In this document: one piece after another, positions 4,470 through 28,628 of the stretch
Layout: the number at the start of each line of letters is the position of its first letter
Position numbering within the stretch: the first letter of the stretch is position 1
Assembly (NCBI GenBank): GCA_024742415.1
Contig: JANSYN010000004.1
Span: forward strand, 62,001-126,000
Direction: 5' to 3'
Length of the DNA stretch: 64,000 nt
Source of the DNA: Gammaproteobacteria bacterium
Lineage (GTDB): Bacteria; Pseudomonadota; Gammaproteobacteria; Pseudomonadales; Halieaceae
Made by a program: the position numbers and the translations under genes
The notes under the pieces: generated by a model
What the model was told of the DNA's origin: nothing
Database searches by the model: none
The model's input: only the letters and a program-made list of their open reading frames with translations

Positions 4470-5453
4470 CTACTGCGTGAAGCTGTCCTGCGTGGTTTCA
4501 TTCTCTGAGAAGTGGCCGGCAAACAGTGGCGATGACAGGTAGCGTTCACCTGAATCCGGCAGGATCGCCACGATCATTTTGCCCTGGTGTTGGCTTTGCT
4601 GCGCAACGCGGTGCGCAGCCGCCATAGCGGCACCGCAGGAGACGCCCGCCAGAATGCCTTCTTTTTGCATCAGCAGGTGCGCCCACTCCATCGCCTCTTC
4701 GCTGGATACCTGCTCTACCTGATCGACCATCGTCAGGTCGAGGTTGGCCGGTACAAAGCCTGCTCCAATGCCCTGGATTTTGTGCGGTGCATGCACGGGC
4801 TCCTGTCCCGCCAGAGCGGCGGTAATCATGGTCGTGCTGTCCGGCTCTACGGCGACTGTGGTGATGGCCTTGCCTTTCGTTTGCTTGATATAGCGCGATA
4901 TGCCCGTGAGGGTGCCGCCTGTGCCTACGCCGGAGACCAGGATATCAATGGCGCCGTCGGTGTCCTGCCAGATCTCTGGCCCGGTAGTCTGCTCGTGGAT
5001 AGCGGGGTTGGCGGGGTTTTCAAACTGGTGCGGCCCCCAGTATTTCTCAGGGTCTGACGCAATGATGGCCTCGGCCCTGGCGATGGCCGCCGGAATGCCC
5101 TTGCTGCCGTCGGTAGGGATGATCTCTGCGCCCAGCGCCTTCATCAACATGCGACGCTCCAGGCTCATCGTGTGTGGCATGGTCAGGATGCACCCGTAGC
5201 CCTTGGCGGCGGCGACAAACGCCAGCGCGATACCGGTGTTGCCGCTGGTCGGCTCAACAATGGTCATACCGGGTTTCAAGCTGCCATCGCGCTCGGCCGC
5301 CTCTACCATGCTGGTCCCGATGCGGCATTTGACCGACATCGCCGGGTTGCGGTTCTCCAGTTTGACGTAGATATTGCCATCAGAAATTCGGTTGATCTTG
5401 ACCAGTGGCGTACCACCAATGGTAGTGGCGTTGTTGGCGTGAATGTTAGGCAT
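4470..5453 (-). CDS. cysK: Cysteine synthase A (O-acetylserine sulfhydrylase)
   Basis: PLP enzyme that makes L-cysteine from O-acetylserine and sulfide in the cytosol. The 327-residue protein has the PLP lysine at K42 in [11 protein letters not shown], the phosphate-binding PTSGNTG loop, the [10 protein letters not shown] glycine loop, and the [16 protein letters not shown] segment diagnostic of CysK. Length matches the family. ATG 5453 was chosen because GGAGAGA lies just upstream and the next residues match the family N-terminus. The longer reading frame upstream lacks similarity. The position after CRIG carries TSM instead of the ANM usual in enterobacteria, a minor variation. Confidence 0.95.
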
Positions 5454-5612
5454 GGGTCTCTCCAGTGCGGCAGATATGCGAATATCCGCGTAAATACAGT
5501 ACATTCCGGTTGTTAACAGACCGGGCTGCAGATCGGGATCAGCCCCAAGAGTAGTTTCCCTCCGTCGCGGTGTCCACGTCTGGGTGGCGCTGTGAAAAAT
5601 TTTTTGTGTTTT

Positions 5613-5767
5613 TTGGAACTTCCCTGTTGCAGGCCGGTCTCATTTATCACGTAAGGCGTACGCACCGGCCCTGGGAAGGGGCCGCTGCGCGAGCCAAGCT
5701 GCATGACCCAGGCAACATTGTGGAGCCATCCAGGTCCTGTTTCTCCTAAGGGTTAGTCCTAGTGTAT
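5613..5767 (+). ncRNA. Structured RNA candidate, possibly 6S RNA (ssrS-like)
   Basis: A 368-bp gap between cysK and the TlpA-like gene contains a highly self-complementary stretch that ends in a strong intrinsic terminator on the plus strand. GGA and CCCT at 5615-5624 pair with AGGG and TCC at 5749-5759. CAGG-CC (5630-5635) pairs with GG-T-CCTG (5733-5739). An apical stem CCTGGG/CCCAGG encloses a GC-rich hairpin. The result is a long rod with an unpaired middle, about the right length and shape for 6S RNA, the RNA polymerase inhibitor. The identification is inference from shape. The usual neighbours (zapA, ygfA) are absent, and the 5' end is uncertain. Confidence 0.45.
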
Positions 5768-5792
5768 GCCGGCCTTCGGGCCGGCTTTTTTT
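5768..5792 (+). terminator. Intrinsic terminator after the structured RNA
   Basis: A perfect 7-bp stem GCCGGCC/GGCCGGC with a UUCG tetraloop is followed by seven T residues. It is oriented for plus-strand transcription, although no protein gene on that strand precedes it. This supports an RNA gene upstream. Confidence 0.92.
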
Positions 5793-5821
5793 CGCGTGTT
5801 GTTTGTCACCGGTAAAGGCCG

Positions 5822-6271
5822 CTACGGGGCGGCGGACGCCGCACTGATGGCATGCTCCAGGGTGGCAGCGGTTTGTGGCCCCAGCAATTGTTGGCGCAAG
5901 TTACCTTCAGGGTCCAGCAGCAAGGTGGTAGGTAATACGGCTGGCCTGGCGATGCCAAGCGCTGCAGACGGATCAGCTATGGTCTGGAAAGCGATGCCCA
6001 GGGCCTCTTCCTGCGCCTGCAACTCAGTGCCTGTTGAGCCCTCGAAATTGACCCCCAGCACTGTTACATCGCTGCGCTCGGCGTCGAAAGCATTGAGTTC
6101 CGGAATTTCCTCGATACACGGTTTACACCACTGCGCCCAATAATTGACCAGTATCCACTGTCCGCGCAGGGCCTGCAGTGCGTTGTGTTCATCGCTGTCG
6201 TTTGCGGGCGCCCCACAGGCGCTCACTAACAGGCACAGTAGTAGTGCAATGGTGTTTCTCGCAGTTTTCAT
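5822..6271 (-). CDS. TlpA-like thioredoxin-fold lipoprotein
   Basis: Predicted envelope thiol-disulfide protein of 149 residues. A short signal peptide ends in the lipobox LVSAC, with lipidated C19. The thioredoxin active site is WCKPC (residues 48-52), preceded by the NYWAQ strand. A cis-Pro-like segment RPAVLPTTLLLDPEG follows, as in TlpA/ResA proteins, which are usually reductants of periplasmic disulfides. The ATG overlaps the stop of the upstream yihY-like gene (ATGA), so the two are translationally coupled. Confidence 0.9.
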   Translation of the reverse strand: MKTARNTIALLLCLLVSACGAPANDSDEHNALQALRGQWILVNYWAQWCKPCIEEIPELNAFDAERSDVTVLGVNFEGSTGTELQAQEEALGIAFQTIADPSAALGIARPAVLPTTLLLDPEGNLRQQLLGPQTAATLEHAISAASAAP

Positions 6272-25737: not shown

Positions 25738-26238
25738 TCAGCGGCAGTGTTGCGGCAACGCAACGCTGGCAACCTTGCGCAGTTCGTCATTTCGAGGGCA
25801 TTGCAGCGTGGCGTTGGCCGTCAGGTCCAGGGTCTCAAGCGCCCGTAGTGAGTAGAGCGGCACCGGGTCGACCACCACGTTGTCATCCAGATAGAGCTCG
25901 CGCAGGCTGACCAGTTTTTGCAGTTCCACCAGGTTGCGAATTTTGTTGGAAGACAAGCGCAGTACGCCAAGTGCCTCAAAGGCGGCCAGGCCTGCCAGGT
26001 CAGTGATACCGGCGTTGCTGCAATTGAGGCTGGTGAGTTGCCCAATACGGGTGATGACCTGATGTTCGATGGTGGCCTCGAGACAGGCCTGCAGGGCAGG
26101 GTCTGTGACCTCAAAGTCCTTTAGCAGTGGAACGGGTGAATAGACAACCCTTTCATTGATGGTGACGTCGTAACCCTGGCAGCCGGCGAGCGCCAGGAAC
26201 ATCACAGCAGCACACAGGAGATAGATTCGGTGGATCAT
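25738..26238 (-). CDS. Leucine-rich-repeat lipoprotein
   Basis: A 166-residue predicted lipoprotein. The signal peptide IYLLCAAVMFLALAGC ends in the lipobox LAGC. After about 45 residues come four internalin/SDS22-like repeats of about 22 residues: LTSLNCSNAGITDLAGLAAF, GVLRLSSNKIRNLVELQKL, RELYLDDNVVVDPVPLYSL and ETLDLTANATLQC. The C-terminal Cys pair may be disulfide bonded. LRR surfaces usually bind proteins. The gene is divergent from the cyclase-like gene with 147 bp between them. ATG 26238 is chosen over a TTG two codons earlier. Confidence 0.82.
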   Translation of the reverse strand: MIHRIYLLCAAVMFLALAGCQGYDVTINERVVYSPVPLLKDFEVTDPALQACLEATIEHQVITRIGQLTSLNCSNAGITDLAGLAAFEALGVLRLSSNKIRNLVELQKLVSLRELYLDDNVVVDPVPLYSLRALETLDLTANATLQCPRNDELRKVASVALPQHCR

Positions 26239-26322
26239 GGGCAATACTCAAAAGATGGGGACAAGCCCAGGCTGCGCCTGGTTTCCTCGTCGCGGGGCAT
26301 AGCTCGTAGCTCGGTACCTCAT

Positions 26323-26328
26323 TATAAT
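26323..26328 (+). promoter_or_regulatory. Consensus -10 box before the cyclase-like gene
   Basis: A perfect TATAAT hexamer lies 57 bases before the ATG of the cyclase-like gene, in the gap shared with the divergent LRR lipoprotein gene. No convincing -35 hexamer is present at 16-18 bases spacing, so activator dependence is possible. Confidence 0.45.
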
Positions 26329-26385
26329 GCCCGAAGCGACGATGTGGACAACCACATTGGGCATTCAACGAGGGCGACCAAAACC

Positions 26386-27726
26386 ATGCCAGACAGTACG
26401 CCGAAATCTACCGCTGGCCAGTCCGGTTCTGACTCCCGCAAGTCAAACGAGGGCGCTGTACCCCTGGAGGCCATCAGCATCGTCCAGCGCGGCAATCTCA
26501 AGTCGCTGGAGAAAACCCTGCGCAAGCAGTGGCGCATGGGGCAGAACATCGTGCTCTGCTGGAGCGCAGATGAACGCGGCCTGCTGGTCATTCTGGTGCC
26601 GCATTACTTCCTGGGCAATTACTGCGCCGGCACCGAAGACAGCGAAAAGAACGAGTCCTTCGTTCGCGATCTGATCTCCGGTGTGCGCCAGAAAACCCGC
26701 GAAGAGCTTTTCGCAATCAGTGAAAGGCTCGACGTCTCTCCCACGTTTATCAAGCTCAGCACAGCCCTCACAGATGAGCCTCAGGTCATGGACTCCGTTG
26801 AGGAGCTGATCAAGCGCTATGGCATCAGCTACGTGGACAGCAGGGCGGTACTGCTGTTCGATATTGTCGATTTTTCCCTTTACACGCCCTTCGAGCAGGC
26901 CAGCCAGCTTAACAGCCTTTCCTACTCGCTGAATTCAGCCTGCAACAAGTTGTTGGGCAAAGGCATTACCATCAACTTTACTCGCACCACTACCGGTGAT
27001 GGCTACTACGTCTGGAACCGCGATCTGGGTTCGGCGGCAAACCAGGATCTGTTCACCTTTATGCTACTGGTGGTAGCCGATAACGCTGTCGCTCAGGCAG
27101 CGTCCAAGGGTAATACCGTGCCTGTGATTCGCACCGGCTACCATATCGGCGGGCACTATGAGCTCTACCAGGCCGAGGGCGTCAATCCATCCATGTTCAG
27201 CTATATCGTTGGCGATGTAACGATTGAACTGGCGCGCATGCTGGACCTGGCGCAGGCTCACCAGGTGCTGGTTGGCGATTTTCATTGTGAACAGGCCGGT
27301 TGGGGCGGGGATGCCGTAAAGTCCATCACGTCAGTGTCGACCACCTCGTTCGTCAATGCCTGTAATCGCGTACTGGGTGCCGTGGTCGGCATACAGTTGT
27401 CCAACAAGAGTATAGAAAGCCTGTCATGCCACTTGTCCGAGGTGGTCGAACAGGACGGTCAAACCCGACCGCGGCGTTTCCGTATCGTCGACAAGCACGG
27501 CCTTTCGCACTATGCCTACAATCTCGAGGTGGCCATCGACCTGGCTGGCGAAACGCTTTCCCTGGGGCTGGACGACGCGCATCTACCCACGCGCGTCGCG
27601 CAACCCCAGGATCCGCAGAAGTCCTCCTCCCGTCCCAGTGAACCGCCCGCCAGCGCAGCGGAGTTAGCGGATGATCTGGCCAGTATGCTCAAAAAACACA
27701 ATGGGAAAACGATTTCAGAGGACTAG
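26386..27726 (+). CDS. Class III nucleotide-cyclase-homology protein, unusual active site
   Basis: A 446-residue soluble protein. Residues about 30-130 are an unrecognised N-terminal region. From about 152 the sequence follows the class III cyclase fold: LLFDIVDFSLY places a metal Asp at D159, and TTTGDGYYVW places the second at D205, the expected 46-residue spacing. YIVGDVTIELARML aligns with the GxxVNxAARx motif. There the catalytic Arg is kept (R284), but the transition-state Asn is I280. The adenine-specifying Lys and Asp positions read Thr and Tyr by eye. The C-terminal tail (about 390-446) is Ser/Pro-rich. The product nucleotide is unknown and activity may be lost. The next gene, five bases on, encodes a phosphodiesterase-like protein. 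Confidence 0.72.
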   Translation: MPDSTPKSTAGQSGSDSRKSNEGAVPLEAISIVQRGNLKSLEKTLRKQWRMGQNIVLCWSADERGLLVILVPHYFLGNYCAGTEDSEKNESFVRDLISGVRQKTREELFAISERLDVSPTFIKLSTALTDEPQVMDSVEELIKRYGISYVDSRAVLLFDIVDFSLYTPFEQASQLNSLSYSLNSACNKLLGKGITINFTRTTTGDGYYVWNRDLGSAANQDLFTFMLLVVADNAVAQAASKGNTVPVIRTGYHIGGHYELYQAEGVNPSMFSYIVGDVTIELARMLDLAQAHQVLVGDFHCEQAGWGGDAVKSITSVSTTSFVNACNRVLGAVVGIQLSNKSIESLSCHLSEVVEQDGQTRPRRFRIVDKHGLSHYAYNLEVAIDLAGETLSLGLDDAHLPTRVAQPQDPQKSSSRPSEPPASAAELADDLASMLKKHNGKTISED

Positions 27727-27731
27727 CAGTT

Positions 27732-28628
27732 GTGGGGCAAATTCAGCGCGCCTATCACATGGATGTGAGTAACTCGATCGATGTCACTGATACTGCCGTT
27801 GTAGCGGCGGTATCTGAAGACATACTTTGTCGTGGCTATCCGCAACTGGATCGCGCTGCACTGGCGCGCCTGTTTGCAGATTTTCACCGGCTGTACCGTG
27901 GGAATTATCCCGGCTTCCACCCCTGTGATGTGGCCTACCACAACCAGCAGCACGTGCTGGATGTCACCCTGGCGATGGCGCGACTGCTCGACGGCTATCA
28001 CCTGCGACACGGCAGCAGCGGTATGTTGTCAGCCGAGATGGCGCTGACCGGCATGGCGGCGGCCCTGTTTCACGATGCGGGGTATATTCGCCGCCTGCGT
28101 GATTCACGCCACAGTAATGGCGCCGCCTATACCCGGGTGCACGTCAGTCGCAGCGCGCGTTTTCTGCGCGACTACCTACCCGATGCGGGCCTGGCCCGAC
28201 TGAGTCCGGCCTGCGCCAGAATCGTCCACTTCACCGGGTACGAGTTGTCTGTGGACAATATCCGTGTCGCCACAGAGGCAGAGCGCCTGGTGGGCATGCT
28301 CCTGGGGACTGCCGATCTCATCGCGCAAATGGCAGACATTGACTATGTCAGAAAGTGCCGCGACGACCTGTATGAAGAGTTCGTGGTCGGTGGTATGGCC
28401 GGTCTGAACGGTCATTACACACACACCGGCACGATCTACCGCTCCCCGGAGCAATTGCTCAAAATGACCCCGACCTTTATTCGCACGGCGATTCATGATC
28501 GTCTCGACGGTCATTTTGAAGGTGTGCATCGTTACGCGGCAGCGCATTTTGACGGTCGGCACCTGTATATGGAGGCCATTGTGGACAACTGCGAGCGCCT
28601 CGAGTCCCTCCTCGCGGCCAGCCGCTAG
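27732..28628 (+). CDS. HD-superfamily protein with class I cyclic-nucleotide phosphodiesterase motif
   Basis: A 298-residue cytosolic protein. YHNQQHVLDVT (residues 69-79) is the YHNxxHxxDV signature of class I 3',5'-cyclic-nucleotide phosphodiesterases. FHDAGY (113-118) is the HD metal pair. HFTGYEL and GTADLIAQMAD supply later candidate ligands. The PDE motif HDxxHxGxxN is not fully conserved (HDAGYIRRLRDSRHSNGAAY instead), so it may be a divergent HD phosphohydrolase. GTG 27732 has AGAGGA nine bases upstream. ATG 27759 is the alternative. The tight spacing to the cyclase-like gene argues for synthesis and breakdown of the same signal. Confidence 0.75.
   Translation: MGQIQRAYHMDVSNSIDVTDTAVVAAVSEDILCRGYPQLDRAALARLFADFHRLYRGNYPGFHPCDVAYHNQQHVLDVTLAMARLLDGYHLRHGSSGMLSAEMALTGMAAALFHDAGYIRRLRDSRHSNGAAYTRVHVSRSARFLRDYLPDAGLARLSPACARIVHFTGYELSVDNIRVATEAERLVGMLLGTADLIAQMADIDYVRKCRDDLYEEFVVGGMAGLNGHYTHTGTIYRSPEQLLKMTPTFIRTAIHDRLDGHFEGVHRYAAAHFDGRHLYMEAIVDNCERLESLLAASR

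Follow-up and report, generated by a model that had tools for sequence, protein, structure and literature searches.

In a 64,000-nucleotide stretch of a 4.14-Mb gammaproteobacterial genome (G000:C16:62001-126000, hereafter the window; of Halieaceae type, judging by its nearest relatives), two neighbouring genes, CYC and HD, probably encode the maker and the breaker of one cyclic mononucleotide. CYC (plus strand, 26386..27726; ATG at 26386, stop at 27726, 446 amino acids) would be a divergent class III nucleotidyl cyclase, hitherto unrecognised, whose product is a 3',5'-cyclic mononucleotide. HD (plus strand, 27732..28628; GTG at 27732, 298 amino acids) starts five bases 3' of CYC in the same probable operon and would be a class I phosphodiesterase that hydrolyses the CYC product, thereby resetting or limiting the signal, a function that would be useful but dispensable. 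The product, on balance cyclic AMP (cAMP), would be read by the CRP of the genome, and the input may enter through the N-terminal domain of CYC. Literature searches, which covered few subscription papers, listed no title or abstract opening that describes the CYC/HD pair.

HD occurs only beside CYC in the host's family

CYC was detected in 100 of the 140 genomes of the host's family (69 of the 78 good ones), so the genes are conserved and not a chance finding. HD was present in 36 of the 140 (28 of the 78 good ones); it lay directly downstream of CYC in all 36, as judged by eye from the coordinates, and it was found in none of the 40 genomes that lack CYC. Cultivated bacteria with both genes include Parahaliea mediterranea DSM 21924 (L024) and Haliea salexigens DSM 19537 (L031). 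Fisher's test of the dependence of HD on CYC gave a P value of 8e-7 for all genomes and of 0.02 for the 78 good ones, both uncorrected for kinship. HD depends on CYC, CYC is independent of HD, and HD is an optional component that has repeatedly been lost.

The history of the pair was traced on a CYC tree built from 67 of the 75 syntenic loci (without L040, L042, L046, L049, L051, L066, L075 and L077), with three of the six other loci as the outgroup. The presence of HD requires 11 changes on this tree, at least 7 of them by well supported branches, and a fully supported branch sets the Halieaceae HD sequences apart from the rest. The simplest story is that HD arrived once beside CYC and was then lost many times. 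Syntenic counts were made on loci with enough flanking sequence (68 for the leucine-rich-repeat [LRR] gene described below and 69 for HD), the copy in the window being left out. The expectation in the initial annotation that the two genes are neighbours in related genomes was borne out only in part: HD follows CYC in 29 of the 69 syntenic loci.

Folds, predicted active sites and the cyclase partners of HD

The structure model of CYC showed a class III cyclase-homology fold over residues 142-386, preceded by a separate domain (about residues 27-141) with no assigned role, both encoded on the plus strand. Asp159 (codon 26860..26862, in LLFDIVDFS), where the model's first core strand ends, is the predicted first metal ligand, and Asp205 (codon 26998..27000, in RTTTGDGYYVWN), between two model strands, the predicted second; Arg284 (codon 27235..27237, in YIVGDVTIELAR) was mapped by motif as the predicted transition-state Arg. 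All three codons lie on the plus strand, and none of the three residues varies among the 52 aligned relatives (alignment A2, 52 of 81 CYC sequences). Three motifs occur together in 78 of the 81 sequences, the other three (L049, L075 and L077) being cut or frameshifted; in L077:5962-7047, from a metagenome-assembled genome (MAG) of Luminiphilus, CYC seems frameshifted or misassembled. Few parts of CYC are as well conserved as its predicted active-site stretches, RTTTGDGYY and YIVGD.TI..AR.

The class III cyclase homology proposed for CYC at the outset is thus confirmed by the fold and by none of the sequence profiles searched. Searches of solved structures by sequence returned nothing for CYC alone and ten weak, unrelated matches (E of 1.1 or more) for the CYC profile. 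PycC chains were absent among the 50 matches listed for the CYC fold, which carries no weight. A resemblance to HTH_3 at residues 91-121 (window 26656-26748) fell below the cut-off (E 0.16), as did weak matches in 8 of the 52 members (best 0.0063), and neither was used. CYC has the class III cyclase fold and yet fits none of the subfamilies compared here.

HD matched PDEase_I above the Pfam cut-off (27.7 versus 24.8 bits), with the match confined to profile positions 1-45 of 238, and its structure model showed a class I phosphodiesterase fold over the full length; together these bear out its description as an HD protein with a class I phosphodiesterase signature. Residues H61, H65, H105, D106 and D186 are invariant in 29 of 29 aligned sequences (alignment A1, which omits L034 and the fragment L042 from the 31 HD sequences). 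We take H65, H105, D106 and D186 to be metal ligands and H61 to be the general acid, roles assigned by phosphodiesterase motifs; Thr237 seems to occupy the place of the base-binding Gln (by motif alignment and residue numbering, without superposition). Residue numbers, alignments and the model of HD are counted from the ATG at 27759. Several relatives carry the in-frame residues MGQ/MGN..QRAGH before MDVSN, often with an ATG there; because these extra residues are kept, GTG 27732 is most likely the start, hence the five-base gap. Four HD relatives from other families fall short of the Pfam PDEase_I model, and no solved structure was found by sequence for HD alone or for its profile.

Relatives of HD outside the host's family also point to a cyclase partner. 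Among 274 sampled Gammaproteobacteria, 23 had an HD match, host included; 13 loci were fetched from the 22 other genomes, and a class III cyclase lay upstream of HD in two of them, both with CHASE2. In the gammaproteobacterial family of one of these two, f140, HD was present in 35 of 54 genomes. Upstream of it, on the same strand and with no more than 558 bases between the open frames, lay a class III cyclase domain at all 34 loci examined (L113, L150-L168 and L170-L183; G801, whose match lies at a contig start, was left out). CHASE2 and PF00211 were found in 11 of 11 of these cyclases scanned with Pfam, and the motifs DKYMGD and YT.LGD.VN in 33 of 34, the other one being cut by the contig end. 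Their Lys and Thr at the base-selecting places are what we take to be the adenylate cyclase pattern. From outside the host's family, the f140 pair is the strongest evidence that HD partners cyclases; with relatives placed behind these f140 cyclases, HD is best interpreted in that way. If CYC is active, cAMP is somewhat the likelier product, favoured because the other standing partner of the HD family is this CHASE2 cyclase with adenine-type Lys/Thr. Support for the maker-and-breaker proposal of the initial annotation therefore comes from three sides: the restriction of HD to genomes with CYC, directly downstream of it; the folds; and the canonical cyclase partners of HD elsewhere.

A number of findings weigh against a pair that makes and breaks a nucleotide. 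Ile280 replaces the usual Asn four residues before Arg284 and, placed by motif, is invariant in 52 of 52 sequences; the base-selecting pair reads Thr201/Tyr273, again by motif, and looks non-canonical; CYC could therefore be inactive or use another substrate. The metal sites of CYC were placed by motif and model elements, without superposition. No cyclase model of Pfam, NCBIfam or PADLOC matched CYC, PF00211 matched none of the 52 members, and a profile comparison with three canonical cyclases yielded no usable alignment. HD is missing from 64 of the 100 CYC genomes, so CYC works without it. As to partners elsewhere, the f140 loci are related to one another and amount to few events. Of the 14 HD loci inspected outside that family and the host's, two of which had little upstream sequence, 1 had an adjoining class III cyclase; within family f89 the count was 1 of 3. 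HD and CYC were not found together outside the host's family; the one sampled genome of the class with both (G167) has them on different contigs.

Some of these observations would suit a different arrangement, which we regard as improbable, in which CYC keeps the cyclase fold without catalysis and acts as a nucleotide sensor that regulates HD, and HD cleaves cAMP made elsewhere, for instance by the response-regulator cyclase at G000:C16:324 kb. The Asn-to-Ile change and the unusual base pair speak for such a sensor, as do the canonical class III cyclase elsewhere in the host genome and the persistence of CYC without HD in those 64 genomes. However, the active-site stretches are among the most conserved of the protein, both metal Asp residues are kept in 52 of 52 sequences, and in f140 the same HD family partners a cyclase with canonical motifs. 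Moreover, according to Ramakrishnan et al. 2016 (PMC4886424), the transition-state Asn is not universal, being His in Rv1900c and Ile in mycobacterial DUF2652 proteins. A pair of active cyclase and phosphodiesterase is thus the reading that we prefer.

Relatives, receptors and the neighbouring LRR lipoprotein gene

A reader of cAMP is at hand in trans, since the CRP of the host lies above the NCBIfam equivalog cut-off (320.6 versus 266 bits). The genome encodes four proteins with a cyclic-nucleotide-binding domain (CNBD) in all. A response-regulator domain is fused to its canonical class III cyclase, whose gene, outside the window, is divergent from a Crp-like gene (L135:4134-6639, G000:C16). 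The remark in the initial annotation that no receptor is adjacent is right for this locus; two relatives in Rhodospirillaceae do have a CNBD gene upstream of CYC. In these two MAGs (L072:5326-7143 and L074:5325-7143) the gene of a 197-residue CNBD protein (in L072 at 5326-5919) ends 3-4 bases before CYC, the domain having been scanned in L072 and read by eye in the near-copy of L074, and the two genes likely form a receptor-cyclase operon. A search for an ortholog of this CNBD protein in the host's family gave matches in 58 of 61 genomes with only 25-42% identity, and no specific receptor was found; such identity is expected of any CNBD, and the match in the host is the Crp-like protein.

A more far-reaching version of the pair is doubtful: CYC would found a new class III family, its base pocket unlike the adenine type, the guanine type and that of the PycC enzymes in PMC11224242; its product would be a non-canonical cyclic mononucleotide serving as a chromosomal, non-defence messenger, with HD as the dedicated eraser and the CNBD protein as the reader in Rhodospirillaceae.

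CYC is rare outside the family, with 7 of 274 genomes of the class and 5 of 398 of the phylum, the host counted in each. Pentapeptide-repeat genes adjoin CYC relatives in Nisaea (L080:4547-8329 and L081:4532-8354, where they flank CYC on both sides), in another Rhodospirillales MAG (L079:7073-8356) and in one gammaproteobacterium (L100:1219-2436); L079, L103 and L100 were scanned and the rest identified by eye, L081 and L103 apparently being one contig (equal length, same genes). In another gammaproteobacterial family, CYC relatives are divergent from a gene pair encoding LemA and an M48 peptidase (L097:4291-8537 and L098:7213-11227), and one gammaproteobacterial genome, G011, has two diverged CYC copies (L095 and L100).

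On the other side of CYC in the window, an LRR lipoprotein gene runs divergently (minus strand, 25738..26238; ATG at 26238, or TTG at 26244 in the list of open reading frames), separated from CYC by 147 bp (26239..26385). The three reading frames and both gaps reported in the initial annotation lie where it placed them, and its naming of the LRR lipoprotein is upheld by a match to LRR_4 (5.2e-13) and a lipobox in the window protein; the strict lipobox pattern occurs in 55 of 68 LRR sequences, the window's included. In 64 of 68 syntenic loci the gene lay near CYC in divergent orientation. This arrangement, together with the recurrence of repeat-protein neighbours in the pentapeptide-repeat loci, would fit a three-part envelope signalling system with the lipoprotein as the input to CYC and HD, as initially suggested. 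We consider this very unlikely. A search for the MBL gene in 13 of the 40 family genomes without CYC found it in 12, and 9 loci were fetched. In 7 of the 9, LRR still lay between the MBL and rsmJ genes, and neither CYC nor HD was matched; these include all four fetched from the host's genus. Of the remaining two, one had an LpxL-like gene and no LRR, and the stretch from the other yielded neither LRR nor rsmJ. Conversely, LRR was undetected at 4 of the 68 loci with CYC. The whole neighbourhood from dapA to dapD keeps its order, which accounts for the adjacency of LRR without invoking a function. The trio was rejected since LRR outlives CYC and HD, and we judge the lipoprotein gene to be a syntenic bystander outside the CYC/HD pair.

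The full order is dapA, bamC, an MBL-fold gene, an LpxL-like gene, LRR (minus strand), CYC, HD, rsmJ, an SDR gene, dapE and dapD; a tblastn match to the LpxL-like gene was not obtained at every locus. Most of these names we assigned by recognising the translations, and rsmJ by a profile match. Between 25700 and 28800, one promoter-like site was found against 1.2 expected, and four terminator-like sites, every one on the minus strand, against 1.9 expected. CYC and HD have a third-position GC close to that of their neighbours and so show no sign of recent import.

Significance and comparison with known systems

The profile libraries searched missed the CYC family, which occurs in 100 of the 140 genomes of a marine bacterial family; if it is a cyclase, cyclic-nucleotide signalling would be under-counted there. 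The HD family travels with two very different class III cyclases and may help to find unrecognised ones by neighbourhood, and CYC is a test of how much drift a class III active site tolerates without losing its function.

Pycsar, which combines PycC with an effector, resembles CYC in having a divergent class III cyclase. An anti-phage locus of the Pycsar type, with CYC as its pyrimidine cyclase, would accord with a class III fold that lacks the canonical purine-selecting residues, and PycC cyclases, too, use other residues (PMC11224242); this explanation nevertheless seems to us extremely unlikely. The PADLOC PycC models matched neither CYC nor its distant relatives L072, L079 and L080, yet they matched two canonical cyclases. 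The locus is core and syntenic, CYC had no match among 72,556 plasmid or 50,697 phage records, and beside it in the window lie the LRR gene, HD, rsmJ and genes for housekeeping functions, and no effector gene. A phosphodiesterase partner, furthermore, would oppose such a system. Pycsar or mobile defence was rejected on the PycC profiles and on the plasmid and phage record searches.

With canonical class III cyclases (PF00211; soluble guanylate cyclase and Rv1625c), CYC shares the catalytic fold and the order of its elements, the two metal Asp residues and the Arg in the helix that follows the GD motif. It differs in matching PF00211 in 0 of 52 members, in Ile for Asn, in its own N-terminal domain and in Thr/Tyr at the base-selecting places, where Lys/Asp(Thr) or Glu/Cys is usual.

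The DUF2652 proteins are described in PMC4886424 as uncharacterised and class III-like, with CNBD genes near some of them and a phosphohydrolase (PF01966) near one. CYC is like the mycobacterial ones in its conserved Ile for Asn, whereas their base pair is Lys/Glu, or Glu/Lys or Arg, versus Thr/Tyr in CYC, and the DUF2652 Pfam profile matched none of the 52 CYC members.

HD resembles class I phosphodiesterases (PF00233; PDE10A and RhoPDE) in its whole-length fold and in the YHNxxH, HD and ADL motifs, and differs from them in being bacterial, with no fused sensor seen. Finally, in the f140 pair a gene of the same HD family follows a class III cyclase gene; unlike CYC, that cyclase carries CHASE2 and canonical motifs and is detected by Pfam.

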